DNA from: a virus | Virus record (IMG/VR): IMGVR_UViG_3300006802_013355 | Coordinates: 1 to 20,990 of that record | Reading direction: 5' to 3' (one strand) | Length of the DNA stretch: 20,990 nucleotides | Shown: one piece after another, positions 1 through 18,349 of the stretch | Numbering within the stretch: position 1 is the stretch's first letter | Layout: each line of letters opens with the position of its first letter | Notes under the pieces: generated by a model | What the model was told of the DNA's origin: nothing | Database searches by the model: none | Seen by the model: the letters and a program-made list of their open reading frames with translations, nothing else | Position numbers and translations under genes: made by a program

Positions 1-2768
1 GCAGAGCACATCTTATATTGTAGGTTATCCTTGAGAAACTCATTGAAGTCTAACCATCCACCATCGGGTGTATGTCTCTTTATCTTTCCAAGCACAGACT
101 TACCCAAACCCTTGATACCCAAGAGGCCTACAAAGTATTGGTCGTTGGTGACCCTAAACTCCAAAGAGAAGTCGTTGATACTACCAAGTGTAACTTCGGG
201 GTCATCCAATAGAGACCGAGCGGTGCTAAGACAAAGGGCGATTTCATCATGGTCATCAGCATGATGGTTTGACATAACCTCAACAAACTCTGCTGGGTGC
301 TTGGCTTTGAAATAACTAGTCCAGTAAGCAAGGATACTATAACTAATCGCGTGAGACTTGTTGAATAGATAACCAGCATTATCAACCAACTTACCAGCAA
401 CTTGTTTGGTTTCTTCCATAGACAAGACTAGTTTTTCGGGGTGGTCGTATAGATGCTCTTGTAGATAGGCATTACACTTCTCATGGTCTAATGACTCACC
501 AATCTTACGAAGAATATCACCTTCACCAAAACTCAAACCAAGACGATTAAACATCTGAATGAATTGCTCTTGGTAAATCATAATACCTTGAGTAGGCAGA
601 AGTATGTCATCAAACATTGGGTGATGGTCATTGGTAATTTCTTCTTCACCATTCTTACGAGCAATGTAAGAATCCAAAGCACCCATCTGTATAACGCCTG
701 GCCGATAGATAGCATTGACCGCAGCAATGTCTTCAATGTTTTTGGGATTACATTGGGCCAACACTCTTGAAATGTTAGACCCCGCAAACTGAAAGACACC
801 GTATGTATTCCCCTCACACAAGAGCTGATAGGCTTTATCATAATACACCTGCTCATCCTCACTCAACAACTCACGGTCAACAGGCATGGTATACAGGTCT
901 TCTACGGTCATTCCTACCTTATCCATTACATCCTTGATGATAGAAAGAGTAGAGATACCCAACATATCAATCTTGAGAAACTTCATCTTAGCCAACTCGT
1001 CTATCTGCCACTCAGTGACCAGTATGTCATCCTTGGTCTTACGCAAAGGCATCATGTCGTATAATGGACTAGATGAAATGATTACACCACCAGCAGCAAT
1101 AGTTTGATTACGAGCATTACCATTGAGTGTGTCAATAATCTCAACAAACTCTTCACTTTCTTCTTTAGGCATAGTCCCAATGAAGTTACGGACTTCTGGC
1201 TTGTCTTTAGCAATGTCAGCAAAAGTAGCCATAGATTTGTTTAGAGAAATGTGACCAGAGATGGTTTTGGCAATCTTGTTAGATTCGGCAAATGGTAGTT
1301 GTTTGTCCTTAGCCAAATCACGAAACAAAGTGTTGACAGAGTAACGTGCATAAGCAGCAACCGAAGCAATGTTGGCAGCACCCCACTTGGTAGCAATGTA
1401 TTCCTTGACTCTTTCTCTATCCTTATCAGCAAAGTCATTGTCAATGTCTGGCTCTTTGATACGAGTAGGATTCATAAACCTCTCAAAGAATAGATTATAC
1501 TTGATTGGATTGAGATGCGTAATACCCAACAACCAACACAACAAAGCGCCACTAGCACTTCCACGGCCAGGCGACATAAGAATAGAGTTGTCGTATGCCC
1601 ACTTACAGAAGTCTTGTGTAATAAGAAAGTAATCAATGTATCCTTTGTCGGCAACCAACTCCAACTCTTTCTTGAGAGCATCAGCATACATTGGTATATC
1701 ATCAACGGGTATCTGACCAGCATCAACCTTCTCTTGCATACCCTTCTTCAGCTGACTAACAATGTATTCTCTGTTATCTTTGAAACCTTCGGGTGTGACA
1801 AACTGTGGCTCTTTCAATGTCTCGGTATCAAGTTTGGCATGACAACGTGAAGCAATGAGTTTGGTTGACTCAATAGCTTCTTCAAGGTATTCATCAGCAA
1901 TAAGGTCACCATAACCATTACTATACCACAACTCTCTCATCTCATCTTCACTAGCCAAGTAAAGAGAGTGGACACCAGCTTCATCAAACTTGCCGTCTGT
2001 ATTCATCCTCCAGAGGAAGTCGTGTGTCTTGTCGTGTTGTTTCAACACAACGTGTGTATCATTAGCTAAAACACAACGGACACCTTCATACTTCTTACGA
2101 AACAACTCAATCAGAGCGACATTGTAATCCTTCTGTATGTCAAGGTCATGTGGGTGTAGCTCAATAAAATAGTTGTCTTTACCAAAGATACTCAACATCC
2201 TATCAAAGAAGGCAGTCATCTTGTCGGTCTGTTTAGCTTGGAGATAACGCGCCATGTTACTAATCACACAGGTAGTAGTAGCAATGATACCCTCAGAGTA
2301 TTTCTCCAATAAATTCAAGTCAATACGTGGCTTACCATAATAACCTTCTGTGTTAGCAAGATAGTTTAGGCGAAACAGATTTCTAAGACCTGTATCATTC
2401 TCAGCTAGTAGCAACAAGTGTGGAGCACGTAGTCGGAGTTTATTCTTCTCCCTTACCTCTGTAGCGGTAAGACCTTTTTTCTCATCATCAGTGAGACCTC
2501 TTTGGTGCATATCCTCAACACAATACATCTCATTACCAAGTATAGGTTTGACCCCTACCTTGGTCATCTCATCATAAAACTCATACACTCCACCCATCGT
2601 GCCGTGGTCGGTTATGCAGCAAGCCTTCATACCTAACTCTACACACCGAGCAGCGTAATCTCGGGCTTTTCCAACTCCATCAAGCATTGAGTAGCAAGTA
2701 TGCAGATGAATATGTGTGAAAGTATCTATCTGACGTTTATGTAATGGTATTTCTTCTTTGTTTTCCAA
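1..2768 (-). CDS. dnaE: DNA polymerase III alpha subunit (partial, C-terminus beyond window)
   Basis: Replicative DNA polymerase of the bacterial C family. The visible 922 codons begin with a PHP domain (HIHLH at residues 19-23, ITDHG at 52-56). The polymerase core follows: GRGSASG, then PDIDNDF with D441 and D443 matching the catalytic aspartates of E. coli D401/D403, and KIDMLGIST with D601 matching the third (D555). Further on are the DnaE signatures YQEQ and NKSHAISYSILAYWTSYFKA, and IKGLGK near the window edge. About 240 or more residues should lie beyond position 1. The frame matched at every section I translated (N-terminus, middle, C-terminus). The start is TTG at 2768: an in-frame stop lies just upstream in the promoter, and the first in-frame ATG (residue 28) would remove the PHP HxH motif. 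AAAGG lies 9 bases before the TTG. It has its own promoter at 2801-2829. Confidence 0.95.
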   Translation of the reverse strand, partial: MENKEEIPLHKRQIDTFTHIHLHTCYSMLDGVGKARDYAARCVELGMKACCITDHGTMGGVYEFYDEMTKVGVKPILGNEMYCVEDMHQRGLTDDEKKGLTATEVREKNKLRLRAPHLLLLAENDTGLRNLFRLNYLANTEGYYGKPRIDLNLLEKYSEGIIATTTCVISNMARYLQAKQTDKMTAFFDRMLSIFGKDNYFIELHPHDLDIQKDYNVALIELFRKKYEGVRCVLANDTHVVLKQHDKTHDFLWRMNTDGKFDEAGVHSLYLASEDEMRELWYSNGYGDLIADEYLEEAIESTKLIASRCHAKLDTETLKEPQFVTPEGFKDNREYIVSQLKKGMQEKVDAGQIPVDDIPMYADALKKELELVADKGYIDYFLITQDFCKWAYDNSILMSPGRGSASGALLCWLLGITHLNPIKYNLFFERFMNPTRIKEPDIDNDFADKDRERVKEYIATKWGAANIASVAAYARYSVNTLFRDLAKDKQLPFAESNKIAKTISGHISLNKSMATFADIAKDKPEVRNFIGTMPKEESEEFVEIIDTLNGNARNQTIAAGGVIISSSPLYDMMPLRKTKDDILVTEWQIDELAKMKFLKIDMLGISTLSIIKDVMDKVGMTVEDLYTMPVDRELLSEDEQVYYDKAYQLLCEGNTYGVFQFAGSNISRVLAQCNPKNIEDIAAVNAIYRPGVIQMGALDSYIARKNGEEEITNDHHPMFDDILLPTQGIMIYQEQFIQMFNRLGLSFGEGDILRKIGESLDHEKCNAYLQEHLYDHPEKLVLSMEETKQVAGKLVDNAGYLFNKSHAISYSILAYWTSYFKAKHPAEFVEVMSNHHADDHDEIALCLSTARSLLDDPEVTLGSINDFSLEFRVTNDQYFVGLLGIKGLGKSVLGKIKRHTPDGGWLDFNEFLKDNLQYKMCS

Positions 2769-2800
2769 GTAAGTTTGCCTTTCTAAAAAGTTATGATACT

Positions 2801-2829
2801 AATATAAGGAAAAATACAAGGCTTGTCAA
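2801..2829 (-). promoter_or_regulatory. sigma70-type promoter for the dnaE gene
   Basis: Reading the minus strand, TTGACA (2829-2824), a 17-base spacer, then TATATT (2806-2801). The upstream context is AAAGTGC and the downstream context AGTATCATAAC. The expected transcript start is near 2794, about 26 bases before the TTG start of dnaE. It is one of seven copies with the same layout. Here the -35 region is a near-palindrome, GCTTGACAAGC. Confidence 0.85.
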
Positions 2830-2834
2830 GCACT

Positions 2835-3032
2835 TTATTCATCATCCCAACTACTCCAGTTTGATTTATCATCACCTTCATCTTCATCATCCTCATCTTC
2901 ATCATATACATCTTCTGCAAAAAACTCTTCTTCACTATTTGTTTCTTTTTCCTCAACCATCATAGCTATTCCTATAATGATAAAGCTGTTTCCAATAATA
3001 AAAAGAGAAATCCACAATAACAATGAGTCCAT
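2835..3032 (-). CDS. small membrane-anchored acidic protein, hypothetical
   Basis: 65 residues, not recognised as a known family. An N-terminal hydrophobic segment (about residues 4-25, LLLWISLFIIGNSFIIIGIA) should span the membrane. The rest is extremely acidic, with runs of Asp and Glu (about residues 28-57), ending WSSWDDE. The ATG overlaps the TAA of the upstream gene in a TAATG arrangement, so translation is probably coupled. The stop lies 5 bases before the -35 box of the dnaE promoter, closing this two-gene unit. An acidic tail of this type could bind a basic protein or mimic DNA, but that is speculation. Confidence 0.65.
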   Translation of the reverse strand: MDSLLLWISLFIIGNSFIIIGIAMMVEEKETNSEEEFFAEDVYDEDEDDEDEGDDKSNWSSWDDE

Positions 3033-3526
3033 TAGCTAACATTATACCACTTTGGTTTAGTGGCTTCATCCTTCCATACAGCAATGTTTTTCTTTTCTAT
3101 CTGATAATACTTTCTATAAGCAGCAATACTATCACCTTCTACCTTACAATGTGGAGGCATACATTGTGGTGGTTGAGTGAAGTTACCGTACGGTAAGTTT
3201 TTTGGTAGGTGACTAAGGGCGTGTGCAAACTTAGTATCACAGAGATGTCTTCTGTTGTATCGGGAATAGTATTCTTCACATAGGCCTATGAAGTGTCTAT
3301 ACAACCAAGAATAATTTTCTGTTGTTTGTCTGGTCCAAATAGTAGATGGGTGATTCTTATGAGCCACCTTATAAATAGGTTGGCCCGCTACTACTTCAGT
3401 ATTATCAAGAACCCTATGAGCAGTGCATAACATCTGAGCACTTTCAAGGGGCATCTTGACAACGTGTTTATCTAATAAGTTAGAGGCGGCTACGGTAGGG
3501 TCTGAGTCTACGTAAAAGATATTCAT
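3032..3526 (-). CDS. conserved phage protein of unknown function
   Basis: 164 residues. The N-terminus (MNIFYVDSDP, then DKHVVKMPLESAQML) and the later NHPSTIWTR, NYSWLYRHF and AYRKYY segments match, from memory, a protein common in marine T4-like phages. Some annotations of this family tentatively point to pyrimidine-dimer glycosylase (T4 endonuclease V-like), and the C-terminal PKWYN recalls the aromatic end of that enzyme. I see no motif proving activity, so the function is left open. The start is well supported: GGAG lies 7 bases before the ATG, directly downstream of the promoter at 3564-3592. It is first in a two-gene unit with the acidic membrane protein. Confidence 0.75.
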   Translation of the reverse strand: MNIFYVDSDPTVAASNLLDKHVVKMPLESAQMLCTAHRVLDNTEVVAGQPIYKVAHKNHPSTIWTRQTTENYSWLYRHFIGLCEEYYSRYNRRHLCDTKFAHALSHLPKNLPYGNFTQPPQCMPPHCKVEGDSIAAYRKYYQIEKKNIAVWKDEATKPKWYNVS

Positions 3527-3563
3527 GTTTTCTCCTTATAGTTTTCTAAAAAGTTGTAATACT

Positions 3564-3592
3564 AATATAAGGAACTATTCAAGGTTTGTCAA
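3564..3592 (-). promoter_or_regulatory. sigma70-type promoter for the 3526-2835 unit
   Basis: Minus-strand TTGACA (3592-3587), 17 bases, TATATT (3569-3564), followed by AGTATTACAACTTTTTAGAAA, nearly the same leader as at the dnaE promoter. It lies between the methyltransferase stop (3614) and the ATG at 3526. It belongs to the seven-member promoter family of this window. Confidence 0.85.
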
Positions 3593-3613
3593 GCATATTG
3601 TTGTGGTAATAAA

Positions 3614-4381
3614 CTATACCACTTCAGAAAGCTTGGATTTGGTTATTTCTATATATTTTTCATCTATTTCAAAACCTAACCACTGTCTATCTAAAGTATT
3701 AGCGACAACAGCGGTCATTCCACTCCCCATAAAAGGATCTAAAACTATATCATTTTCTTGAGTAGAAAGTAACACACAGTTTTTTACCAACTGTTCTGGA
3801 AATGGAGCGGGGTGGTCTGCCTGTTTCTTTGGTGTTATCTCCCACACCTCACCTTTATACTCTTTTTCTATTTGGTTACGATAGACTTTAGGTTTTTCTT
3901 TACATAACCAATAAATGTGTTCGGTACATGGCACTAATATGTCGGCTCTGATATTTGGTGAACTGCGTCTATTCCATATAATCAACTGATATAAACTTAC
4001 ATCAGATTGGGATATAAATTCTGTAGGTAAAAAACTTCTATTTTTATGTCTACGGGGTTTGTGGTTAAAGAATATGCTACCATCTGGCTTAATAACTCTA
4101 TTCATTTCATTTAAAACCGATATCATCCATTGTTGATAATCGACTTCAGGCATATCATCACCATAGGAATTATAATCAATTTCAAACTTATTCCAAATGT
4201 GATTACCTTTTTCGTGGTATGTATACCTATCATGTTTTTTATTAATATTATTCTTGTTTGGTTTTACCTTACCAAGCAAACCTTTCTTATTATATGGAGG
4301 TGAAGTAACAATACAATCAATAGAGTTATCTTCTAATTGACTTAGACCTTCTAAACAATCCTTATTAATAATTTGATTCAC
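3614..4381 (-). CDS. DNA methyltransferase, N4-cytosine/N6-adenine type
   Basis: 255 residues. S-adenosylmethionine-dependent amino-methyltransferase acting on DNA. The catalytic motif IV is TSPPYN (residues 26-31), and the SAM-binding motif I is DPFMGSGMT (215-223) near the C-terminus. This order, catalytic motif first, is the beta class. The SPPY form is most often seen in N4-cytosine enzymes, but N6-adenine enzymes also carry it, so the target base is not decided. The section between (about 40-200) would hold the target-recognition region. The start is a GTG that overlaps the TGA of the upstream gene (GTGA), implying translational coupling. Transcription comes from the promoter at 5040-5068. 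It could be an orphan methyltransferase protecting phage DNA, or the partner of the 208-aa protein. Confidence 0.9.
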   Translation of the reverse strand: MNQIINKDCLEGLSQLEDNSIDCIVTSPPYNKKGLLGKVKPNKNNINKKHDRYTYHEKGNHIWNKFEIDYNSYGDDMPEVDYQQWMISVLNEMNRVIKPDGSIFFNHKPRRHKNRSFLPTEFISQSDVSLYQLIIWNRRSSPNIRADILVPCTEHIYWLCKEKPKVYRNQIEKEYKGEVWEITPKKQADHPAPFPEQLVKNCVLLSTQENDIVLDPFMGSGMTAVVANTLDRQWLGFEIDEKYIEITKSKLSEVV

Positions 4382-5004
4382 TTAAAAAGCTCCTTATGTA
4401 TGTGCCATAAAACATTATATCTGTTTGTTTGACTACTCTTTCCCTCTCGCTGAAAATGAAAATAACTTTTACCTTCTTTGTTTTTTAGGTGTATCGCGCC
4501 CTTTTTTACTACCCAATTACAGTTTTCAATTTTACTAATCACTTCATCATATTTTAGTTCATACTCTTTATTGTTTTTTGTATCTTTATAAACAATATGG
4601 GTTATACCAAAACCATTGTTAATAATATAGTCAATAACTTTTTTCTTATTATTTACCAAGAAATTAAAAAAACTATCGACAAAAACAGAATCTATTTCTG
4701 TAGTATGATATCTATCCTTGCCATTATTTTTTATTGACGGGTTACCACAAAACCTATGAACAAATTCAGATTCATAAGATTGTAGTCCCATTTTTTCAAT
4801 AAACGATTTTTGAGTAGTAAGGTGAACCTGTGTGCTTGAACCACTAGCGTTTTTAATACTCTTATTGTTTATACCATCACTACCATCAATCTTTGTTTGA
4901 CTACCACCAATTTGCTTTAGATTGTGCTTTTCACATATTTCTTTTTCCTTTAGACCTGAATTTTCTTCTCTTATTCTGCGGCCATCTTCTTTAGTAAGCG
5001 GCAT
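4378..5004 (-). CDS. unrecognised protein coupled to a methyltransferase; candidate restriction endonuclease
   Basis: 208 residues, no family recognised. The N-terminal third is charged and Ser/Asn-rich, and may include a small DNA-binding part (KEKEICEKHNLKQIGG). The C-terminal half has a beta-rich look with a polar cluster YFHFQREGKSS (about 181-191), followed by NVLWHIHKELF. QxExK at 185-189 could serve as the nuclease end of a degenerate PD-(D/E)xK fold, but this is weak evidence. The main argument is context: it overlaps the methyltransferase start, shares one promoter with it, and the two form an isolated cassette. The DNA is very AT-rich (4621-4680 has 11 G/C in 60), unlike the SSB gene (12361-12420 has 29 in 60), suggesting separate acquisition. 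It could equally be a specificity or regulatory partner. Confidence 0.7.
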   Translation of the reverse strand: MPLTKEDGRRIREENSGLKEKEICEKHNLKQIGGSQTKIDGSDGINNKSIKNASGSSTQVHLTTQKSFIEKMGLQSYESEFVHRFCGNPSIKNNGKDRYHTTEIDSVFVDSFFNFLVNNKKKVIDYIINNGFGITHIVYKDTKNNKEYELKYDEVISKIENCNWVVKKGAIHLKNKEGKSYFHFQREGKSSQTNRYNVLWHIHKELFK

Positions 5005-5039
5005 ACTATATATTTTCCTTTGTTAAAAGTTGTAATACT

Positions 5040-5068
5040 AATATAAGGAAAAATACAAGGCTTGTCAA
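5040..5068 (-). promoter_or_regulatory. sigma70-type promoter for the methyltransferase cassette
   Basis: Minus-strand TTGACA (5068-5063), 17 bases, TATATT (5045-5040), then AGTATTACAAC. The bases from AAAGTGCTTGACAAGCCTTG through the -10 are the same as in the dnaE promoter. It lies 8 bases after the stop of the 5501-5076 gene and 36 bases before the ATG at 5004. Confidence 0.85.
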
Positions 5069-5075
5069 GCACTTT

Positions 5076-5501
5076 TTAAAAAGACTCACCCGTATTGCAA
5101 TCATAAAGCAACTTACCTGTTTTTGCACAGAAGATTTTGTTTTCTTGCTCATCTGTGCGATACTTGGCATTTTGACCTAATGTAAAGTATTTTGCCATTT
5201 CACTTATGTTGTTGTCAAAATCTTTACCCAACTTATCCAATGTGCCATAAAAGTATGTGCCTGGCTTTTGTTTTGTTTCTTTAGCTGGCCTTATAAGGTC
5301 TGATAAATCTGCTCCGCTCACTGCCATTTGTCTCCGTCTATATCTTTCGTGCGTCTTTGTTGCTTCGTCTTTTAGTTTCTCAGCTTCCATTTTTTCTAAG
5401 TATTCAGCAGACGGGCCGCTCTTGGGGAGCAGAGCGGCCGCCTGTTTTTCTTGTTTCGTCTTAGTATCTATTGTATTTAGTATTTGTCTTGACTTAGCCA
5501 T
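5076..5501 (-). CDS. hypothetical protein at the end of the replication unit
   Basis: 141 residues from the ATG at 5501 (MAKSRQILNT); family not recognised. The first 80 residues are rich in Lys, Glu, Ala and Gln and probably helical. The C-terminus has a compact segment with two Cys (KIFCAKTGKLLYDCNTGESF), which could be half a metal site or a disulphide. A longer open frame to 5555 exists but runs into the RNR gene; the ATG at 5501 follows the RNR stop by one base, with AGG 6 bases before it. The position directly after RNR suggests a nucleotide-metabolism or redox accessory, but nothing in the sequence proves that. Confidence 0.75.
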   Translation of the reverse strand: MAKSRQILNTIDTKTKQEKQAAALLPKSGPSAEYLEKMEAEKLKDEATKTHERYRRRQMAVSGADLSDLIRPAKETKQKPGTYFYGTLDKLGKDFDNNISEMAKYFTLGQNAKYRTDEQENKIFCAKTGKLLYDCNTGESF

Positions 5502-5502
5502 T

Positions 5503-7383
5503 TTAACCTGCAGCGATAGCGGTAGATTCGGTAATTTCACAAGCTCCACCAGCACACGCTAACTCACCTGTCAAGTCAGTATTGTCCATCAACTCAACTA
5601 CTTGTGATACATCAACCTCTTTTAGAGTTGACACTAGTTCGTTGAATTGTTTTTCATCAATGTCTTCAAAAGGTAATTGAGTATAGGTTGAATCAGCAGC
5701 AAAGTATGGTAGTACAGAAAGTCCATTGTAAAACTCTTTGTTATCCCACATCCACTTACCGACTGAATCCCATTCATCTTCTTTGACCGAAACAGTACAA
5801 GATACATTATGAGTATTGTTGCCAGCAACATGACCATTAGCAATCCATCGTTGATAAATGTCTTTCACTCTATCCAACAACTCTATTGATGTCTCATGTC
5901 GTAGAATACCACCTTCTTCTGCCTTCTGTGGAATAGAAATAACAGCTTGTGTTTCTGGTTTGAAGAAATCATCTTCTACTAATTCGGGGTGATTGAGCAG
6001 CAAGTATGTGTAAATAGCTTCATTCTTACCAACACGAATACGCCTAATATAATAATCGTTGTGCCAAGCATGGACACCACTTGAGGTTCCTAATACACAA
6101 GATGTTGTCCCACTAGGTTTAACCGTAGTTACTCTGGCAGCAGGGTTGACACCCAACTCATTAGCATAATACTTATTTGTATCAACAGCAAGTTTAGCAG
6201 CTTCTTCCAAGTCTAGTTTCTGTACCTTACCACTACCAATACCTGTCATACCCAAACCAAGTAGCGCATCTTTTTCTGTTGTCCTACGCCACACATCTCT
6301 TAGGTAATGAAAGTTTGTATAAGCGGCCTGTAGTGTGCCTATCAAGGCAGCAGCAGAAACTCTGTTATTCAACTCTTCTTGTGTTTCTACATCACTTACA
6401 TTTATCTCACAAAGGTTACAGAACTGAAAAGGTCGTAGGGCAATCTCAGCACAAGGGTTAGTTCCCCAATCTTGGTCATTAGTAAAATAAATGCCTGGCT
6501 CTCCAGCACCACTGGCTTTTACTTTTTCCCAAATATCAAAGAAGTCACTTTCCTTTACTCTATGTCTTACAACAACAGCAGAGTTGTTTGCTCTTGCTCT
6601 TTGTGGCTCTGTTTCCCACCAATTACCAAACTTACATTGTAGCATCTCTTTATCATCAAGAGAGAATAAACTGATAGTGGCACTTCTACGAATACCACCA
6701 GACAATACGGCATCAGCAATCCAACAAACAATGTCATGTACTTCTAGTGTAGTAAGTTGGTCACCGTTTTGCTTTCTGTTAAAAATTCTACGAATGTTAT
6801 GGACACAATCTCTGAGAGGCTCTGGTCCTGGCGCCTTGCCTCCACTTGTTACTAGTAGGGCACCTTTTGGTCTAATTCCACTAAAATCAAAATCGGGGTC
6901 AGGCTTTCCAAGAAAGTAAGCCTTCATCAACATCTTTATACAATCGGCCCAACCTTCAATACTATCACCGACTAAGTATCTCCGTTTCTTCGTAGGAATA
7001 GTAATAGATGGTAGTTTTTCTACATGGTGTTTTTGGACAGAATAACCGACACCTGTGCCACCCAACAAAAGAAACATTATTTCACTGAAGGCTCTATAGT
7101 CATCAACTGGCAAATAAGCACAATTATAGATTCTTGTAGGAGTCTGAGAGATAGCTGGACCAGCAAACTGCAAAGACCTCATAGACGGTAAGACCTGTTT
7201 ATTATATACAAACTCATAAGCTTTTTCAATGTTTGACTTGAGTTTAGGAAAATTACTTATGTGCATTTCCTTATTGCGAGTGATAAGTTCTTCCCACGTT
7301 TCCCTTCTTTGTTTTTCTGGAAGATAACGAGCATACTTCATGTGCACTGTTATCTCAGATAGTATTTGTTGAGTTGTGTCCAA
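5503..7383 (-). CDS. nrdJ: adenosylcobalamin-dependent ribonucleotide reductase (class II, monomeric RTPR type)
   Basis: 626 residues. Reduces ribonucleotides to deoxyribonucleotides using a radical made from coenzyme B12. The cysteines fit the Lactobacillus leichmannii enzyme: C88 (NCAY) for C119; C311 and E313 in NPCAEI for C408/E410; C322 eleven residues later for C419; and a C-terminal C610/C615 pair (CAGGAC) for C731/C736. LPSMRSLQFAGPA, GGTGVGYSVQ and SGGIRRSATISLFS are also typical. It is about 110 residues shorter than the 739-residue L. leichmannii protein, with no key cysteine missing. The start is TTG at 7383, with GGAG 7 bases upstream and 2 bases after the FmdB stop; the first ATG is at residue 15. 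With the dCMP-deaminase-like protein and ThyX it covers dNTP supply. It would need a host that makes or imports B12. Confidence 0.95.
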   Translation of the reverse strand: MDTTQQILSEITVHMKYARYLPEKQRRETWEELITRNKEMHISNFPKLKSNIEKAYEFVYNKQVLPSMRSLQFAGPAISQTPTRIYNCAYLPVDDYRAFSEIMFLLLGGTGVGYSVQKHHVEKLPSITIPTKKRRYLVGDSIEGWADCIKMLMKAYFLGKPDPDFDFSGIRPKGALLVTSGGKAPGPEPLRDCVHNIRRIFNRKQNGDQLTTLEVHDIVCWIADAVLSGGIRRSATISLFSLDDKEMLQCKFGNWWETEPQRARANNSAVVVRHRVKESDFFDIWEKVKASGAGEPGIYFTNDQDWGTNPCAEIALRPFQFCNLCEINVSDVETQEELNNRVSAAALIGTLQAAYTNFHYLRDVWRRTTEKDALLGLGMTGIGSGKVQKLDLEEAAKLAVDTNKYYANELGVNPAARVTTVKPSGTTSCVLGTSSGVHAWHNDYYIRRIRVGKNEAIYTYLLLNHPELVEDDFFKPETQAVISIPQKAEEGGILRHETSIELLDRVKDIYQRWIANGHVAGNNTHNVSCTVSVKEDEWDSVGKWMWDNKEFYNGLSVLPYFAADSTYTQLPFEDIDEKQFNELVSTLKEVDVSQVVELMDNTDLTGELACAGGACEITESTAIAAG

Positions 7384-7385
7384 TG

Positions 7386-7610
7386 TTAGTCTCCGTCTGT
7401 TGATTGTTGTATATTTTTAGCTGATTGATAACCATCCTTGAAAAAACCTGCACCAAACTTGATGCCAGGCGGTGTGTAGTTTCTTCTTACATTGTCCGAC
7501 TTATTACACTTAGGACAATTTTGTTTCTTGTATCTGTCGTAGTCCTTGATAGAGATACTTACTTCAAATGTTTCTTCACACTTATCACAAACAAAATCGT
7601 AAGTAGGCAT
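7386..7610 (-). CDS. FmdB-type zinc-ribbon protein
   Basis: 74 residues. The start MPTYDFVCDKCEETFE is the hallmark of the FmdB/CxxC zinc-ribbon family. Four cysteines (C8, C11, C32, C35) would bind one zinc ion. The C-terminal third is polar and probably flexible. FmdB proteins are named as putative regulators, but their role in phages is not known; metal-dependent protein or nucleic-acid contact is likely. The ATG overlaps the stop of the 81-aa gene upstream, and the TTG of RNR follows 2 bases after its own stop, so the two are probably translated together. Confidence 0.85.
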   Translation of the reverse strand: MPTYDFVCDKCEETFEVSISIKDYDRYKKQNCPKCNKSDNVRRNYTPPGIKFGAGFFKDGYQSAKNIQQSTDGD

Positions 7611-7855
7611 TATGTGCTTTTAGCTCCAATCTTTTCAACACGATGTATAAACTCTGTATTGCCATTGTCGTAGGCTAACAGCACCTCATACTCCACCTCT
7701 TCATTAGTGTGAAGTCTTTCTCTCTCTATCATTTGATTTGCCATCCTAATCACATCATCTCTCTTGGCTTTTGACCTTGATGTTGAATAAACATTTCTAA
7801 TATTTATGTCTGCATTACCCCATCTATGAGTTCTAGTAATTGTAAACCTATCCAT
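7610..7855 (-). CDS. hypothetical protein, 81 aa
   Basis: Not recognised. A short basic protein: a polar N-terminal half (TRTHRWGNADINIRN), a helix rich in Arg, Lys and Glu (about 28-48, KAKRDDVIRMANQMIERER), then a beta-like C-terminus (YEVLLAYDNGNTEFIHRVE). No cysteines, no membrane segment. The ATG lies inside the 3' end of the helicase gene (8-base overlap) and its stop touches the FmdB start, so it sits in a tightly coupled series. Its place among replication genes is the only hint of function. Confidence 0.75.
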   Translation of the reverse strand: MDRFTITRTHRWGNADINIRNVYSTSRSKAKRDDVIRMANQMIERERLHTNEEVEYEVLLAYDNGNTEFIHRVEKIGAKST

Positions 7856-9200
7856 TTACTCCATCCTTGTGTGTCCTATAAAGAGAGCCTATCTTGTTTT
7901 CATTACCACCATTTAGAAGATTGGCTAACTTATCAGTTGTGGTAAAACCTGTTGGCAAATTATCATTTAGGTCAATAAAACTTCTATCTGGCTTCATCTC
8001 TATGTTGAAGTTGATACCAGCTTGTCCCATACGATTCTTACCAATGTGAAACTTACGTTGTGAAAATGTCCCAAAGAAATCAACTACATGGGCCTTGTTG
8101 ATAGCCTCACCGACCTTATCAATGGTAATAACATCATCATTGAAACCTTCACGATTACTTTGTGTTGCTGTCCAAATAGGTTTCTTGATTTCCATAGACA
8201 GGGCTCTAAGGTCTTCAAAGATACTTTCTAACTCAAACCTCTTTTGCTCGTATCCTCTACGTGACTTCATCAAATCACCATAGTCAATGATGATAAGGTC
8301 TGGCTCAATGTCATTAGAAATCAAACGACCAATATGAAACTTGATTGTGTTGATTGTAGCAACTTTTGGTGGATACTCTTTGATAAACAACTTACCACCA
8401 GTGAATCGTTGCATAAGGTTTTGGGCCTCTGTTTGTCTTGTTATCAACTCCTTAGTTGGAATACCAGTAATACGACTATCATAACGATTACCTACGTGTG
8501 ACTCAGAAAGCTCAAAAGTGTAGTGGACAACATTCTTACCTGCAGCCAAAGCACCATAACCAAAGTTGACCAACATAAAACTCTTACCGCCGCCAGTTGG
8601 AGCCATAACAACACCCAGCTCACCAGCAGCTAATCCACCATCTAAGATACTTTCTTGGTCTAACAATGGAAAACCAGTAGGTATAGTTTGTCTTGTGTGA
8701 ATTTGTCTACGTGATTCAAAGCTATCAAAAAAGTCTTGACCCAAGTCTTGCTCGGTGTTTATCTTCAAGCTATTCTCAATGGTGCTTTGTATTTCTTCAT
8801 AACGACCTTCCTTGAGAAGGTCAACAGACTTTAGGATAGCCTGTTTCATACTCATGTTTTTACAAAACTCTATTGACTTGTCCTTAGCGTATTCTATCTC
8901 TTGACGATTGACTCTCGTCTGAATGTCAAGCAATACTTCAATAGTGTCTTCCTTCAATGCTCCATCAGGCATTGTTGATATTTCCACCTTTACTGTTTCG
9001 TATGATGGTGGAGTATTATACTTGTTGAATAACTTTCTTATCTCTGTCCAAAGTGTTTTGTGAGCGTCACTGGTGAAGTATTCATCTTTCAATGTTTCAA
9101 ATGACTTCTCAAAGAAAACACGGTCAGTGATAAGACCTTGCAATACACAGTTTTGAAAACCAATTCCAAAAGACTCAAATGTATCAGTATTATTAGACAC
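7848..9200 (-). CDS. replicative DNA helicase, DnaB/T4 gp41 family
   Basis: 450 residues. Hexameric 5'-3' helicase that unwinds the fork. The N-terminal helical domain (about 1-150) matches the DnaB N-terminus in position; the C-terminal RecA-fold motor has Walker A APTGGGKS (200-207) and Walker B DLIIIDYGDL (301-310), then TATQSNREG (motif 3-like). An IPTGFPLLD stretch precedes the motor, as in DnaB (PTGF.DLD). The start is GTG at 9200 with AAGGAG 8 bases before it. No separate primase is present in the window, and no fused primase domain is visible. It lies 12 bases downstream of the 5' nuclease gene in the replication unit. Confidence 0.92.
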   Translation of the reverse strand: MSNNTDTFESFGIGFQNCVLQGLITDRVFFEKSFETLKDEYFTSDAHKTLWTEIRKLFNKYNTPPSYETVKVEISTMPDGALKEDTIEVLLDIQTRVNRQEIEYAKDKSIEFCKNMSMKQAILKSVDLLKEGRYEEIQSTIENSLKINTEQDLGQDFFDSFESRRQIHTRQTIPTGFPLLDQESILDGGLAAGELGVVMAPTGGGKSFMLVNFGYGALAAGKNVVHYTFELSESHVGNRYDSRITGIPTKELITRQTEAQNLMQRFTGGKLFIKEYPPKVATINTIKFHIGRLISNDIEPDLIIIDYGDLMKSRRGYEQKRFELESIFEDLRALSMEIKKPIWTATQSNREGFNDDVITIDKVGEAINKAHVVDFFGTFSQRKFHIGKNRMGQAGINFNIEMKPDRSFIDLNDNLPTGFTTTDKLANLLNGGNENKIGSLYRTHKDGVNG

Positions 9201-9212
9201 CTAAATATCTCC

Positions 9213-10178
9213 TTAGTTTTTCAAGATGGAAAACGATGCGACCCAATTATCTAAGTTTGACGGACTCACATTTTCGTTTAGTAGGTTAATACGAAACTTG
9301 TAAGAATTAAACTTAGGCGCATCTTTATCGTAAGTTTTATTTATAGTATCAATAGCGGCAAGAGAAATGTCTAGCTCTTGTAATTGTACAATACTATAAT
9401 TCAGTTTAATCAACTCTTCATTCTCAACATACTTTTGATACTTCTTTTCACTACGACCTTTTGCCCAATCTATAAAGTCACCTGCATCATAACTTTTTTC
9501 ATTATCCCACAGGAGATGTATTTGATTACGAGCTGTTTTCTCACCGATACCTTTTACACCTTGTATGTTATCACTCTTGTCGCCAACAACAGCCTTGAGT
9601 AAGGCATAGTTTGGTGGGTGAATGTTTTCTTTTTGATGCATCCACTCCAAGTCAATAAACTCACCTTGTTTGTTGGTCTTTGTTTTTACTGGTCTGAATA
9701 CACTAGTATTCTCATCTACTAGTTGTAGATAGTCTCTATCAGTGCTGACAATGACCTTCTTACGGTCTTTGATAGTATTCTTACACATATAGGCAATAAC
9801 ATCATCAGCTTCCAAATACTTTACAGCTACTTGTTTCAAAGGTAAAAACTCCATAGCCTCTTTCAACGCTTCAAGTTGACGAGCGAAGGCTTCCTTCTCA
9901 CTCTCATCTGAGGTCTCAAACCCCCTTCTCATCCCCACCATCTTACGACCTCGTTTGTAATCCTCTAACTTCTTTCTTCGTTTCTGAGAGGAGCCAGCAC
10001 CCTCCCAAGCGATTATACACTCACTTGGTGAAAACTTGTTGATATAACTTTGAAGTGCATTTAGACTTCCATAAAAACCACCTACGTGCTCTCCATTATC
10101 ATTGGTCAATGGTATTGATGAAAAACAACGGCAATAAAGATTGAGTAAATCAATCAACAATACAGGCTTATCGGACAC
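9213..10178 (-). CDS. 5'-3' exonuclease / flap endonuclease (Pol I N-domain, T4 RNase H family)
   Basis: 321 residues from a GTG at 10178. Removes RNA primers and flaps during lagging-strand synthesis. The acidic metal-binding motifs are intact: LLIDLLNLY (D10), EADD at 124-127, STDRDYLQL from 146, and GDKSDN at 200-205. The helix-hairpin-helix GVKGIGEKTA follows at 208-217, and basic KRRKKLEDYKRGRK forms the helical-arch region. No polymerase domain is attached. A longer reading frame back to 10247 exists, but the GTG has AAGGAG 6 bases upstream that overlaps the stop of the preceding gene, and the family's conserved sequence begins only there. It works with DnaE and the helicase encoded in the same window. 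Confidence 0.93.
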   Translation of the reverse strand: MSDKPVLLIDLLNLYCRCFSSIPLTNDNGEHVGGFYGSLNALQSYINKFSPSECIIAWEGAGSSQKRRKKLEDYKRGRKMVGMRRGFETSDESEKEAFARQLEALKEAMEFLPLKQVAVKYLEADDVIAYMCKNTIKDRKKVIVSTDRDYLQLVDENTSVFRPVKTKTNKQGEFIDLEWMHQKENIHPPNYALLKAVVGDKSDNIQGVKGIGEKTARNQIHLLWDNEKSYDAGDFIDWAKGRSEKKYQKYVENEELIKLNYSIVQLQELDISLAAIDTINKTYDKDAPKFNSYKFRINLLNENVSPSNLDNWVASFSILKN

Positions 10179-10188
10179 TTGTTGCTCC

Positions 10189-10593
10189 TTATAATAGGGT
10201 AAAGTTAAAACCTTTAGATGTAGTGTAGTAACACTTTTTAACACCATAGTCTTTCATTATCTTATAACAAGACTTGCATGGGTGTGCAGGTTTGAGTAAA
10301 CCGTTTTTATCTTCTCGGTAAACATACATTGTTGACCCTTGCAGATTGTCTTCGTATCGGTAGGGGTTTACCTTTAGAAGAACATCTAACTCAGCATGGA
10401 TACTGTGTGCAAAAAAGTCATAATGTTTTCTAAGCATAGGGTGACTTTTATCTTTATTACACCCTACAAAAATCTTACCATTTTTTAGAATCAAAACTGT
10501 GCCAAACCTAGTGTGATGCATACTTTTCAAACATTCATTACGAGCAATACGGAACCATTTATTACTCGTAACTTCCTGCACTGCACTATTCAT
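10189..10593 (-). CDS. cytidine/dCMP deaminase-like protein
   Basis: 134 residues. The zinc-binding signatures of the cytidine deaminase fold are present: HAE at 66-68 (proton-shuttling Glu68) and PCKSC with C106 and C109. In phages such proteins usually convert dCMP to dUMP, the substrate of thymidylate synthase, and ThyX is encoded a few kilobases upstream. Substrate choice cannot be read from the sequence; a tRNA or free-base deaminase is possible. Start ATG at 10593 with AAAGG 5 bases upstream; the frame is open further, to 10650, but that extension is unlike the family. A 79-base gap separates it from the upstream membrane protein, the longest gap inside this unit. Confidence 0.8.
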   Translation of the reverse strand: MNSAVQEVTSNKWFRIARNECLKSMHHTRFGTVLILKNGKIFVGCNKDKSHPMLRKHYDFFAHSIHAELDVLLKVNPYRYEDNLQGSTMYVYREDKNGLLKPAHPCKSCYKIMKDYGVKKCYYTTSKGFNFTLL

Positions 10594-10639
10594 TTTAACC
10601 TTTTGGTAGAATAAATATAGACTAGAAAATTTTAGAAAA

Positions 10640-10756
10640 ATGACTATCAATCAAAAAAATTTAGATTCATCTTTAGGATTCTTTTTTGAAGATATTTTTG
10701 ATGGTTACTATGAAGAACCAGAAGATTGTCCATTGCCACCAAACAATGGTTGGTAA
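10640..10756 (+). CDS. possible 38-aa plus-strand ORF, antisense to a membrane-protein gene
   Basis: ATG to TAA, 38 residues (starts MTINQKNLDSSLG, then acidic FEDIFDGYYEEPEDCP). It would be the only plus-strand gene in the window. It begins in the 79-base gap upstream of the deaminase gene and runs across the 3' end of the membrane protein gene in exactly aligned codons. ATAAATA, the core of a T4-type late promoter, lies at 10611-10617. There is no clear ribosome-binding site. The composition could simply be the antisense image of the Phe/Trp-rich membrane segment, so this is a weak candidate. Confidence 0.2.
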   Translation: MTINQKNLDSSLGFFFEDIFDGYYEEPEDCPLPPNNGW

Positions 10757-10942
10757 TCCAAGAGGCGCGATGCCGACATTCCATAGATAAGCAAATATCC
10801 ATGAAATGCCAGCAATCAAACAACCAAAACCTACAAGAATTGATAGACATAGAGTAAGAATAATCAATTCCACACCATTAGAAGTTTTTTCTTCTTCTTC
10901 GTTTACATTCTGTCTATCTTCTGGTGTAAGTTTTGCGACCAT
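10673..10942 (-). CDS. small two-helix membrane protein, hypothetical
   Basis: 89 residues. A polar acidic N-terminus (about 1-22, EEEEKTSNG) is followed by two hydrophobic stretches (about 24-50 and 58-80, the second with five Trp in WWQWTIFWFF) and a basic tail (KNIFKKES). This predicts two membrane-spanning helices. The ATG overlaps the recombinase stop (TAATG), so it is coupled to it. Function unknown; placement among replication genes could mean membrane attachment of replication, but a holin-like or superinfection-exclusion role is equally possible. Confidence 0.72.
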   Translation of the reverse strand: MVAKLTPEDRQNVNEEEEKTSNGVELIILTLCLSILVGFGCLIAGISWIFAYLWNVGIAPLGLPTIVWWQWTIFWFFIVTIKNIFKKES

Positions 10943-12093
10943 TATAGTTCTTCTTCTCCCTGCAATTCTTCAGTGGTTATTTCTTCTTCTCTCTTATCGG
11001 GGTCTTGTTCTATGATAAGAGCAGACCTTACAAGAGCCTTACAATAGGTGTGGGCCTCTTTGTTTTCTGTTTTACGTATCCAATCAACAAACTTACGATT
11101 CTGAAACTCGTATACTTCTCCCGTATCCTTATTGGTAATAGATGATTTTTGAGCACTAATCTTTTCAGCATGACCAGACTTCAGAAGTATGTCTAACCAA
11201 CTCTCTTCATCTATCAAACCTTTTGTGAAATACATCTTCAACTCGGCTTCACGATGAGGTGGGCCCATTCTATTCTTGATAAGTTTTGGTTTGATACCGA
11301 CACCAATAACATCCTTACCAGCTTTTACCTTACCGCCGCTGTATAGTTTCATACGAACAGAAGAAAAGAAAGGAATGGCCTTACCGCCTGGCGTTACCGT
11401 ATCATCACCAAAGAATACACCAATCTTTTGTCTCACTTGATTTAGAAACACAAGAGCAACTCTTTGTTGACCAACAAAACGTATGAGTTTTCTAAGACCT
11501 TGACCAATCATACGAGCTTGCATACCAATGGTAGCTTCACCGTAATCATTTTGTATTTCTGCATCTGTGGAAGTGCCAGCCACACTATCCCACACAATAC
11601 AACACAGTTTGTCTTTATCGTTTTCCCTAATCTTACGGACTATTTCTTCAATAGCGGAAAATACTTTTTCTACCGACTCAACTTGAATGTATACAAGGGA
11701 GCCTTCTGGATAAAACTTCAAACCAAGCAAGTTTAGGAAGTCTTCATTACAAGCATTCTCTGTATCAATCAATACAGGAATACCACCTTTGTCTTGACAA
11801 TCTTTTAGAATCATGTATGACAATAGGGATTTACCAGTGGCCGCCTCACCACATATTTCGGTGAGGCGACCAACGGGAATGCCCCCATCGGCATTTTCAT
11901 CATTAGAGATGATTGTGTCTAATACTGTAGAGCCTGTTGATAACCACTCCTTTACTTCTGGTGGACTATCACCCTTACCAAGAATATAGGCTACATCACC
12001 GAGCTTCTTGTTAAGACTATCTACAAGTATATCGTTTAGTACCGAATCTTCTTCTACAGAAGACTTGGTTGCTTTTATTTTCTTTCTGGCCAT
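10942..12093 (-). CDS. RecA/UvsX-type recombinase
   Basis: 383 residues. Forms filaments on ssDNA and catalyses strand exchange, supporting recombination-dependent replication and repair. Walker A is GEAATGKS (82-89), a DTENA segment follows near 110-115 (catalytic Glu position), and Walker B is CCIVWDS (164-170). NQVRQKIGVFFGDDTVTPGGKA corresponds to the RecA DNA-binding loop 2 region. The C-terminus is acidic (EEEITTEELQGEEEL), as in RecA. The ATG shares an A with the SSB stop, and the next gene overlaps its stop, so it is translated as part of an SSB-recombinase block. RecA versus UvsX naming is open; the sequence has features of both. Confidence 0.93.
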   Translation of the reverse strand: MARKKIKATKSSVEEDSVLNDILVDSLNKKLGDVAYILGKGDSPPEVKEWLSTGSTVLDTIISNDENADGGIPVGRLTEICGEAATGKSLLSYMILKDCQDKGGIPVLIDTENACNEDFLNLLGLKFYPEGSLVYIQVESVEKVFSAIEEIVRKIRENDKDKLCCIVWDSVAGTSTDAEIQNDYGEATIGMQARMIGQGLRKLIRFVGQQRVALVFLNQVRQKIGVFFGDDTVTPGGKAIPFFSSVRMKLYSGGKVKAGKDVIGVGIKPKLIKNRMGPPHREAELKMYFTKGLIDEESWLDILLKSGHAEKISAQKSSITNKDTGEVYEFQNRKFVDWIRKTENKEAHTYCKALVRSALIIEQDPDKREEEITTEELQGEEEL

Positions 12094-12923
12094 TACTTAA
12101 AGTCTATGGCCTTGTCACCAAGAAGATTGTCAAGAGCATCATCAATCTTCTTACTAACCTTATCATCACCACCAGTATCCTTCTTCTCGTCATTGGAAGT
12201 GAAATCACGAGCAGCACCTGCTGATGAATCTGAATCATCAGCGTTGGGGTTGATGTGTTTGTCAAGAGCAATCTTCATCTCTTCAACTGGGCTATACTCA
12301 AAGAGTGTCTCAACCTCAGTAACACTATCAATGATGGTCTCAATCTCAGCCTTTGTGCCAGCCAAAGGAGTGGGCTTGAGAGCAGTAGTAATGGTAGTAG
12401 GCATCAACCAACCATTGAAGCCTGGCTCAACGGTAACCATCAAGTCCAAACCTTCAGTAGCATCAGTGATGTCAACATTCTGACGCAAACCACTACGGAC
12501 ATGGTTTAGCACTTCCTTGTAGGTAGTGCGGGGTGAAATACTCCACCAACGTATACCCTTGTCTTCTTGACCACGCACAACAATAGGCACATAGACCCGA
12601 AGTGTGGGAGCCATTGTCTTAAACATCTCCTTATAAGACTCATCGTTAGTCTTAGTATACTCATTCCAACAAGTAGTGGCGAAATCACAAATAGGGTCAG
12701 GCTCACCCTTCATCTTATTGGGACACAAGAAAGTGCGACCACCAATCTTAAAGTGAAACCACAACTCACGAAATGGCATATCCAAGTCGTGCTTGTATGG
12801 AGCGATACGAATCTGATGCTCTCCCTCATCCAACTTAACAAGAGCGTCATTCTGTTGATTGCCACCACCCTTGTTATCCAACCTATCAAGAGCGGAATTG
12901 ATTTTATCTAAACTAATCGGCAT
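12093..12923 (-). CDS. single-stranded DNA-binding protein, T4 gp32-like
   Basis: 276 residues. Coats ssDNA at the fork and interacts with recombinase and polymerase. The core has FRELWFHFKIGGRTFLCPNK with H57 and C67, then C79 and C85, which fit the zinc-binding His-Cys-Cys-Cys subdomain of gp32. Aromatic and basic residues around WWSISPRTTYKEV would line the DNA cleft. The tail (about 225-276) is Asp/Ser/Lys-rich and disordered, ending in an acidic amphipathic motif (KKIDDALDNLLGDKAIDFK), typical for protein recruitment. The start is ATG with AAGGAG 11 bases upstream. It heads the longest unit, with two promoters and a 5' hairpin. GC content is clearly higher here than in the methyltransferase cassette. 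Confidence 0.9.
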   Translation of the reverse strand: MPISLDKINSALDRLDNKGGGNQQNDALVKLDEGEHQIRIAPYKHDLDMPFRELWFHFKIGGRTFLCPNKMKGEPDPICDFATTCWNEYTKTNDESYKEMFKTMAPTLRVYVPIVVRGQEDKGIRWWSISPRTTYKEVLNHVRSGLRQNVDITDATEGLDLMVTVEPGFNGWLMPTTITTALKPTPLAGTKAEIETIIDSVTEVETLFEYSPVEEMKIALDKHINPNADDSDSSAGAARDFTSNDEKKDTGGDDKVSKKIDDALDNLLGDKAIDFK

Positions 12924-12971
12924 AAGTTTTCTATCTCCTTGCCATAATGAAACTGCATGATGGGGTTTGTT

Positions 12972-12992
12972 GTAAGTATTCTAATAACTTAC
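12972..12992 (-). promoter_or_regulatory. hairpin at the expected 5' end of the SSB mRNA
   Basis: Minus-strand GTAAGT, a 9-base loop, ACTTAC: a perfect 6-bp stem. The -10 box of the promoter ends at 12999, so the transcript should begin within a few bases of this stem. It could protect the mRNA end, or act as an operator for autogenous repression, as the gp32 leader structure does in T4. This is inference; no footprint or conservation is available. Confidence 0.45.
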
Positions 12993-12998
12993 TCACAT

Positions 12999-13027
12999 AA
13001 TATAAACAACTATCTTAGTTTTGTCAA
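12999..13027 (-). promoter_or_regulatory. sigma70-type promoter for the SSB-RecA-RNR unit (proximal)
   Basis: Minus-strand TTGACA (13027-13022), 17 bases, TATATT (13004-12999), then ATGTGAGTAAG. The upstream AAAGTGC matches other copies. The leader to the ATG at 12923 is about 70 bases, longer than the 26-38 typical of the other units. The TGA stop of a possible 56-aa ORF lies inside the -35 box. Confidence 0.85.
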
Positions 13028-13194
13028 GCACTTTTTTCGTCAAAGCACTCACAAGATTCACCACATGATTTAAATGGTTTATTTCTAAATGTTGATAATA
13101 ATATAAGTAATAGTATGGGGGTTGTCAAGCATAAAATACATGCTAAAACAATTTTTATTTCAGCACCAACCAATGTAACACTCTCCTTCCTCAT
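13024..13194 (-). CDS. possible small membrane protein, 56 aa
   Basis: ATG at 13194 (MRKESVTLVGAEIK). A hydrophobic stretch (about 14-36, IVLACILCLTTPILLLILLS) predicts one membrane helix, followed by a Cys-containing polar tail (SCGESCECFDEKSA). The TGA stop is embedded in TTGACA of the promoter at 12999-13027, in the same reading phase (GCT TGA CA) as at the end of the epimerase gene, which mildly favours a real gene. A complete promoter (13100-13128) lies inside it, which argues against, since the hydrophobic codons and the promoter share bases. The ribosome-binding site is weak; a TTG at 13176 behind GGAG is an alternative start. Confidence 0.4.
   Translation of the reverse strand: MRKESVTLVGAEIKIVLACILCLTTPILLLILLSTFRNKPFKSCGESCECFDEKSA
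13100..13128 (-). promoter_or_regulatory. sigma70-type promoter, distal tandem copy before SSB
   Basis: Minus-strand TTGACA (13128-13123), 17 bases, TATATT (13105-13100), then ATTATCAACATT. It lies 101 bases upstream of the proximal SSB promoter with the same spacing, so the two are tandem. No separate gene follows before the proximal promoter, so it probably adds transcription of the SSB unit. Confidence 0.8.
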
Positions 13195-13336
13195 TTGCTC
13201 TTTTTGATGAGCAAACAAGGAAAAAGGCAAAAAATGGAATGAGCAAAATAATAAGGGGAATAAATAGTAGCTTATTTTTGGAAGAAGGTTTCTTCCCAAA
13301 TTTCAGAAGTTTTAGGATAGATTTGATGTAATACAT
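13160..13336 (-). CDS. possible small membrane protein overlapping the thyX 3' end, 58 aa
   Basis: ATG at 13336 inside the thyX 3' end, in another frame (an earlier ATG at 13354 is also open). A basic amphipathic start (KSILKLLKFGKKPSSKNK) is followed by a strong hydrophobic stretch (LLFIPLIILLIPFFAFFLVC) and a short Cys-containing tail. This predicts one membrane helix with a positive inside. It fills the 140-base gap after thyX, which is otherwise unexplained. Its 3' end overlaps the next small membrane ORF by 35 bases. Both could be chance products of T-rich DNA. Function not inferred. Confidence 0.33.
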   Translation of the reverse strand: MYYIKSILKLLKFGKKPSSKNKLLFIPLIILLIPFFAFFLVCSSKRANEEGECYIGWC

Positions 13337-13985
13337 GTTTGACTGCCTTGGCATATTTTCTGATCTCCCACTGAGAGTCTGGCTTATCTCGTAGCTCTAC
13401 AAAATTCATAAGGGCTTGAAATGATGCTGTCCAGATAACTTCTGTATACTGAGACAACGGCAACATTATTCTTGCTTGTTCTTTTGCGACACCGAGCTTT
13501 AACAACTCTTCATAGTTGTGTTTGATTAGCTTTATCGCATTCTCGTATCTTTCGTGGGCTTCTTCTTGAAGTGGGATTTCACCCACGCTCGCCTGCTTTG
13601 AGTCTGGCGATTGTTGGCGCCAGATTTCGGGAAGATAAAATTCCTCAACTGGCACATAACGGCCACTAATTTCATTCCAAGCATGGTCTTTTGTCGAATG
13701 TGATGATGAAGTTTCTATTCCAACTACGTGTTTATACGCCTGTCTCATAACAAACTCAGGCGCCTTTATGTGTAGTTGGACTATGAGATGTCTAAACGGG
13801 GAAAAGTGTTTATGTTTAGCGAGGTATCTAACAAGTTTTTCATCTGATGTTTCATATGTTTCTTTTCTCTTTCCAAAGGATACACGAGCAGAATTTACTA
13901 CTGTTAAGTCTGTACCACAGAAATCTAACAACTCTACGAAACCCTTGTCTAGAACCTTTGGTTTGATAGCAAACTTACCTTCCAT
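13272..13985 (-). CDS. thyX: FAD-dependent thymidylate synthase ThyX
   Basis: 237 residues. Methylates dUMP to dTMP using methylene-tetrahydrofolate, with FAD and NADPH. The C-terminal part of the ThyX motif is clear: NEISGRY at 104-110. The N-terminal part, usually RHR, is RQAYKH at 81-86, and about 17 residues (VVGIETSSSHSTKDHAW) separate the two halves, longer than the classic RHRx7S spacing. I recall similar insertions in cyanophage ThyX, so it is probably a functional phage subtype. SPFRHLIVQLHIKAPEFVMRQ is the usual lead-in helix. The start ATG lies within the 3' end of the 57-aa gene (11-base overlap). The deaminase-like gene downstream would supply dUMP. Confidence 0.92.
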   Translation of the reverse strand: MEGKFAIKPKVLDKGFVELLDFCGTDLTVVNSARVSFGKRKETYETSDEKLVRYLAKHKHFSPFRHLIVQLHIKAPEFVMRQAYKHVVGIETSSSHSTKDHAWNEISGRYVPVEEFYLPEIWRQQSPDSKQASVGEIPLQEEAHERYENAIKLIKHNYEELLKLGVAKEQARIMLPLSQYTEVIWTASFQALMNFVELRDKPDSQWEIRKYAKAVKHVLHQIYPKTSEIWEETFFQK

Positions 13986-14148
13986 CGTATAAATCTTCCT
14001 CTAATTCATCAAAGTTAGGGTCATTATAGTCAATGTTTTTTATTGCTGTCTTAGTATTACTTCTTCGTGTTTTACGTTGATTCTTCTTTACTCCACGATT
14101 GGGCTTAACTACTTCACTCGCATCTTTTCTGCGATTTGTCCGAGCCAT
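13975..14148 (-). CDS. small charged protein, 57 aa
   Basis: ATG at 14148 with GGAAAG just upstream; ends TAA overlapping the thyX start. The N-terminal half is very basic (MARTNRRKDASEVVKP, KKNQRKTRRSNTKT), the C-terminal 20 residues acidic (DYNDPNFDELEEDLYDGR). The charge split suggests a nucleic-acid-binding head with an acidic tail, but no family is recognised. It fills the whole 174-base gap between thyX and the ligase-like gene, and its stop/start overlap and ribosome-binding site support a real gene. Confidence 0.7.
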   Translation of the reverse strand: MARTNRRKDASEVVKPNRGVKKNQRKTRRSNTKTAIKNIDYNDPNFDELEEDLYDGR

Positions 14149-14159
14149 TTCTTTCCTTT

Positions 14160-15398: not shown

Positions 15399-15407
15399 TT
15401 ATTTTCT

Positions 15408-15608
15408 CTATGCCTGTATGTCTAAATTATCACCAATATTATTTTGGTGCTTTAGTTTTTTTGGTTTTCTCTTACCAAGACAAGAAGTGCATACACCATA
15501 CCTAGCTAGGTTTTTTACTGTGTTTCCACATTCAGTGCATCTTGTCTTTTGTTTGGGTGGTATATACTCAACGTAATAGTTTGTATTTTTTACTGGCTTT
15601 ATAAGCAT
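15408..15608 (-). CDS. small zinc-ribbon protein, 66 aa
   Basis: Two CxxC pairs (C24/C27 and C40/C43, in CTEC and CTSC) form a zinc ribbon. The C-terminus is basic (GKRKPKKLKHQNN), fitting nucleic-acid binding. The ATG follows the stop of the nucleotidylyltransferase by one base and its own stop lies 9 bases before the ligase-like gene, so all three are cotranscribed. No named family. Confidence 0.72.
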   Translation of the reverse strand: MLIKPVKNTNYYVEYIPPKQKTRCTECGNTVKNLARYGVCTSCLGKRKPKKLKHQNNIGDNLDIQA

Positions 15609-15609
15609 T

Positions 15610-18289: not shown

Positions 18290-18320
18290 TTATCACCTTT
18301 TATAAAAATGTTATGATACC

Positions 18321-18349
18321 AATATAAGGAACTAGTCAAGGCCTGTCAA
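18321..18349 (-). promoter_or_regulatory. sigma70-type promoter for the 18289-13272 unit
   Basis: Minus-strand TTGACA is reduced to CTTGACAGGCC here (18349-18344 reads TTGACA), then 17 bases, TATATT (18326-18321) and GGTATCATAAC. It lies between the stop at 18358 and the ATG at 18289. Confidence 0.85.

Follow-up and report, generated by a model that had tools for sequence, protein, structure and literature searches.

A phage gene pair predicted to be a type II restriction-modification system with a HinP1I-like nuclease and ACGT as its predicted target

The viral DNA analyzed here (the window; 20,990 nucleotides of IMG/VR record IMGVR_UViG_3300006802_013355) contains two overlapping genes that probably constitute a phage-borne type II restriction-modification system. 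The pair would combine an ACGT-specific nuclease with an N4-cytosine methylase and would cut unmodified DNA. A restriction-modification pair had been proposed in a sequence-only reading of this locus, and the proposal is supported by the predicted fold of the first protein and by its linkage to the methyltransferase; cleavage itself is a prediction.

Gene pair, promoters and methyltransferase

Both genes are on the minus strand. The 208-aa protein is encoded at 4378..5004 and the 255-aa methyltransferase, which has a GTG start, at 3614..4381. As the sequence-only reading described, the open reading frames share the four bases GTGA at 4378..4381, where the stop and start codons overlap. This -4 overlap is the commonest arrangement of the two genes among relatives, and it likely couples their translation. 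The pair was also said to be more AT-rich than the replication genes, and indeed the nuclease gene (30.1% GC) and the methyltransferase gene (32.6%) have the lowest GC content of the 16 genes compared, the 14 others ranging from 34 to 44%.

Sigma70-like promoter patterns are located on the minus strand upstream of the nuclease gene (5038..5068) and directly after the pair (3562..3592), where the second site precedes a pyrimidine dimer glycosylase homologue and bounds the pair downstream. Both sites read TTGACA-17-TATATT (5068-5040 and 3592-3564; 11 of 12 matches), and the 39-base pattern occurs twice against 0 expected. A near-identical third copy is found at 2799-2829 and a looser one at 18319-18349, both on the minus strand, so that the phage promoter sequence TTGACAAGCCTTGTATTTTTCCTTATATTAG recurs at four minus-strand sites of the window. 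Thus, the two flanking sites are present as first noticed, but they are not specific to the pair: the third copy assigns the promoter to a recurrent phage set rather than to a private nuclease/methyltransferase cassette. The gene at 5503-7383 (minus strand) encodes a B12-type ribonucleotide reductase with its best isolate match in Microcystis phage Mel-JY01 (62.5%), a hint of a cyanobacterial host.

The methyltransferase matches the N4/N6 DNA methylase family PF01555 (E 2.7e-43), and its SPPY motif (residues 27-30) precedes DPFMGSG (215-221), the motif order of the beta class. The best solved relative is a cytosine-N4 methyltransferase (PDB 8s9m, E 6.5e-63). The family match and the position of SPPY before FxGxG together agree with a beta-class cytosine-N4 enzyme. 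It is predicted to protect A(m4C)GT, the target being taken over from the analysis of relatives described below.

Predicted fold and candidate active site of the 208-aa protein

The 208-aa protein has no match in Pfam, NCBIfam, PADLOC or PDB sequences. The earlier statement that it belongs to no recognised family thus needs only one addition, the unnamed and functionally unannotated phrog_25220 (E 3.9e-83). PF11463 (R-HINP1I) does not match the sequence at E <= 10. A scan of bacterial genomes with the nuclease alignment found no relative, which is weak evidence of absence since only two peptide patterns were used, and a plasmid search for relatives also found none. The open reading frame is real, because a homologue is present at 80 viral loci. 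In comparison with the locus L001 homologue, dN is 0.14 and dS 0.66 (dN/dS about 0.2).

An AlphaFold model built with 39 viral homologues (pLDDT 87.9, pTM 0.82) has a restriction-endonuclease fold of the HinP1I/MspI type, and not the non-nuclease fold that would have spoken against the proposed pair. The best structural match is HinP1I (Z 15.8; 183 of 208 residues; rmsd 2.7), followed by MspI (Z 9.7), with all others at Z 3.9 or below; Foldseek matches the model to HinP1I at E 2.9e-9. HinP1I is again first (E 8.6e-8) for a second model, from a divergent clade of relatives about 45% identical. Profile-profile comparison with HinP1I homologues from Campylobacterota gave a probability of 79% (E 1.7e-5). 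The model therefore has the fold of the R-HINP1I family, while the sequence itself escapes PF11463.

All full-length aligned homologues have E20, D40-G41, S49-I-K51 and Q59 invariant. By inspection of the alignments, D40, K51, Q59 and Q185-R line up with the active-site and QRKGG segments of HinP1I; the C-terminal QREGK cluster, singled out earlier as merely polar, sits where HinP1I homologues have QRKGG. We take D62, Q81, K83 and Q93 to be the catalytic and minor-groove positions of HinP1I (a Q-x-K motif and a minor-groove Gln). Compared by eye with the catalytic residues of HinP1I, D40, K51 and Q59 appear to be in place, but a serine replaces its Q. We propose E20, D40 and K51 as candidate catalytic residues, and the protein is predicted to be a HinP1I-like nuclease of PD-(D/E)xK fold.

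Linkage to the methyltransferase and loss of ACGT in carriers

Searching with both window proteins (tblastn), we found a methyltransferase relative near the nuclease in 59 of the 80 viral loci; among isolate records the methyltransferase accompanies the nuclease in 11 of 11. Homologues occurring mostly without a methyltransferase, the other outcome that would have weakened the original proposal, were thus not observed. No record was found with the methyltransferase at >=60% identity and without the nuclease. The genes are arranged as nuclease-methylase, methylase-nuclease or convergently, usually overlapping and at most 1.4 kb apart. Protein distances of the two correlate (Mantel r 0.83; 0 of 2000 permutations). 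Together with PF01555 and 8s9m, this linkage provides the adjacent methyltransferase expected of a type II system.

The backbones around the pair differ, and essentially no neighbour gene of the window adjoins it elsewhere. In the syntenic relatives L197 and L214 the pair is absent, and a dCMP deaminase gene lies between DnaE and the homologue of the open reading frame at 5076-5555; the window has at that interval the nuclease, the methylase, the glycosylase and the open reading frame at 2835-3032. Linkage, correlated distances, differing backbones and the synteny gap indicate that the two genes were inserted and move together, in agreement with the movable insertion suggested previously. The glycosylase gene (3032-3526, minus strand; PF03013, E 3.2e-7) accompanies the pair in the window and is likewise absent from the corresponding place in L197 and L214.

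The predicted target rests on site depletion in relatives. In the L074 family, whose members have DnaE 84-97% identical, all five dereplicated carriers of the nuclease lack ACGT (0 observed, 150 expected), whereas all 48 dereplicated non-carriers retain it (1553 of 1922 expected; Fisher 3.5e-7); for the remaining 15 palindromes the two groups are broadly similar. On the DnaE tree, carrier L531 (0 sites) groups with its sister non-carriers L532-534 (27-33 sites) and away from the other carriers, so the loss happened at least twice. At ACGT positions of non-carriers the carriers retain 0 of 19 and 0 of 21 sites, the change being mostly ACGT to ATGT, versus roughly a quarter to a third for other palindromes.

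Depletion extends beyond this family. ACGT is the lowest palindrome in carriers of the window type (0.35; 324 of 923 expected), compared with 0.80 in 80 Kyanoviridae loci, and is the most depleted of all 4-mers in the divergent clade (0 of 91; z -9.6, the next being -4.7). A 71.6-kb carrier record with a solitary nuclease and no detected methyltransferase has 0 sites against 97 expected. Among cyanophages, carriers Sf-CH1b (17 of 176, 0.10), G419 (0.11) and G422 (0.16) contrast with non-carriers at 0.65-0.90. Further palindromes are avoided besides ACGT in the helicase-relative and Kyanoviridae sets, and Kyanoviridae carriers differ from cyanophage controls in AATT and TGCA as well; the weight is therefore carried by the within-family L074 test. 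HinP1I (G^CGC) and MspI (C^CGG) both cut NCGN palindromes. This and the observed depletion lead us to predict ACGT as the target of the nuclease. The HinP1I site GCGC was rejected as a candidate, being avoided neither in the window (13 observed, 10 expected) nor in L074-family carriers (203 and 162).

Carriers with an N4 methyltransferase retain some ACGT (pooled 0.35), and most carriers without one retain none, which agrees with recognition of one site by both enzymes but does not prove it. Counting against the prediction, several methyltransferase-bearing carriers have near-normal ACGT (L020, L036, L037), and one carrier without a detected methyltransferase, L062, has 7 sites against about 11 expected. 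The match to the methyltransferase in L020 comes as two separate pieces, with ACGT there at 18 of 20 expected. Neither PF01555 nor PF05869 was detected in the records of L056-L060 and L062, and the methyltransferase of the window type is absent from L073-L075 and L078-L083. In the latter loci a Dam gene (PF05869) adjoins the nuclease, except in L079, where the contig ends. We considered Dam as an alternative partner and rejected it, since it is resident in the L074 family and occurs in 89 of 110 non-carriers overall; the 48 dereplicated controls were chosen by the presence of Dam, which shows that the nuclease site is covered.

The window itself is not depleted (29 ACGT, 43 expected), and its pair-free relatives are alike at 0.68, so that the target assigned to it comes from relatives. 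These counts fit a recently acquired pair protected by methylation, with a specificity deduced from homologues. The window is strongly short of GATC (3 of 68 expected), CCGG (2 of 16), TCGA (4 of 32) and GTAC (11 of 75), which suggests pressure from host restriction systems.

Several records have unusual ACGT distributions. Record G004 (L455-L457) is devoid of ACGT over bases 1-15862, a stretch that contains the nuclease, and then has normal density to 56 kb, suggesting recent recombination or an assembly join. The ACGT-free relatives L577 and L594, with contigs that stop short of the nuclease site, and L513, which begins after it, are predicted to be carriers. The more distant IMP-dehydrogenase relatives L529 and L530 have 0 ACGT of 14 and 20 expected with no nuclease found in their records; another cause or a different enzyme may be responsible.

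Proposed role and comparison with known systems

In our proposal the nuclease cleaves a palindrome of four bases, which we predict to be ACGT, and probably acts as a monomer, as HinP1I does. The overlapping methyltransferase would place an N4-methyl group on the cytosine of the same site, by which phage DNA would be spared. Unmodified DNA in the infected cell, either the host chromosome or a rival phage, could then be cut early in infection. Catalysis, cut position, m4C at ACGT, timing and biological target are all inferred steps. Self-protection would be achieved by N4-cytosine methylation, as in the window, or by site purging where the N4 methylase is absent. Whether the nuclease truly serves as a weapon in both ways, with its methyltransferase or, after an ACGT purge, with immunity encoded in the sequence, we regard as an even call. 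With the nuclease gene ahead of the methylase gene and no controller gene, such a system would endanger a bacterium in which it is resident, but not a phage that brings in DNA already methylated.

Phages also purge sites under host restriction, and a host ACGT-specific enzyme could have driven the loss while the phage nuclease has another specificity or role. The window's shortage of four other palindromes, for which it has no known enzyme, favours such an origin. We nevertheless consider it unlikely, because ACGT loss follows the nuclease gene within one family and in separate lineages, as in L531 and its sisters, and in the cyanophages as well. Perhaps only phages that had no ACGT to begin with acquired the nuclease, which would still indicate ACGT as its target. 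It is also improbable that the pair is purely defensive, with a methyltransferase that shields the phage against a host enzyme and a nuclease that is either vestigial or an addiction partner stabilising the genome. Restriction-modification pairs can behave selfishly. Phages sometimes carry lone methyltransferases for self-protection (PMC4081073), but the nuclease is conserved, keeps invariant candidate catalytic residues at a dN/dS of about 0.2 and in two groups is present where the window-type methyltransferase is missing. A homing-type nuclease spreading its own cassette would explain an insertion in many unrelated backbones; the HinP1I/MspI fold is no homing fold, record-wide loss of a 4-bp word suits a short target rather than one long homing site, and the nuclease is linked to a methyltransferase, all of which make homing highly implausible.

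Under the restriction-modification reading, host DNA degradation and rival exclusion both fit the pair. Exclusion of unmethylated rival phages is a reasonable contender for the main use, although we lean slightly away from it. Purged or methylated genomes would be mutually immune, and the Marseillevirus system spares host DNA and can cut rival viruses (PMC7253447), whereas chlorovirus restriction enzymes are credited with host DNA degradation and not with exclusion (PMC7019647). The two uses cannot be told apart from sequence.

The papers searched contain no description of this nuclease family, which spans 80 viral contigs and three isolate lineages of Synechococcus phages. Its identification would name genes now called "hypothetical" and predicts m4C at ACGT in virion DNA. 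The family also offers a natural experiment on two ways for a virus to escape its own DNA cutter: methylating the site or deleting it everywhere.

The likeness to HinP1I and MspI consists of a predicted fold that matches along almost all of the protein, an apparent D..K active-site pattern on corresponding strands and the C-terminal QR-x-G region. In contrast, identity is about 18%, PF11463 is not matched, and the candidate motif is D-x8-S-x-K where HinP1I presumably has Q-x-K. Moreover, the window nuclease is phage-borne, with ACGT as its predicted target and an N4 methyltransferase as its partner, whereas the HinP1I homologue of H. cinaedi (L164) adjoins an apparent C5 methyltransferase, as judged by eye.

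A phage with both halves had been called unusual. Bacteriophage type II restriction enzymes are indeed said to be rare (PMC4081073), but there are precedents: in the Kyanoviridae cyanophages S-CAM3 and ACG-2014j an annotated type II nuclease gene, RsaI-type in the latter, overlaps a beta-class methyltransferase. There, however, the nuclease gene is shorter and otherwise annotated, and the methyltransferase is only 27-28% identical to that of the window. GTAC is not depleted in the RsaI-type carriers beyond other cyanophages, so loss of the own site is not general. The Marseillevirus GATC system, thought to hit rival viruses (PMC7253447), is a comparable viral restriction-modification system but belongs to a eukaryotic virus, with other enzymes and another site. 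The chloroviruses likewise encode a nuclease beside its own methyltransferase, with a short target in a lytic virus; they differ in being algal viruses with methylation described as m5C and m6A, and their nucleases are packaged (PMC7019647).
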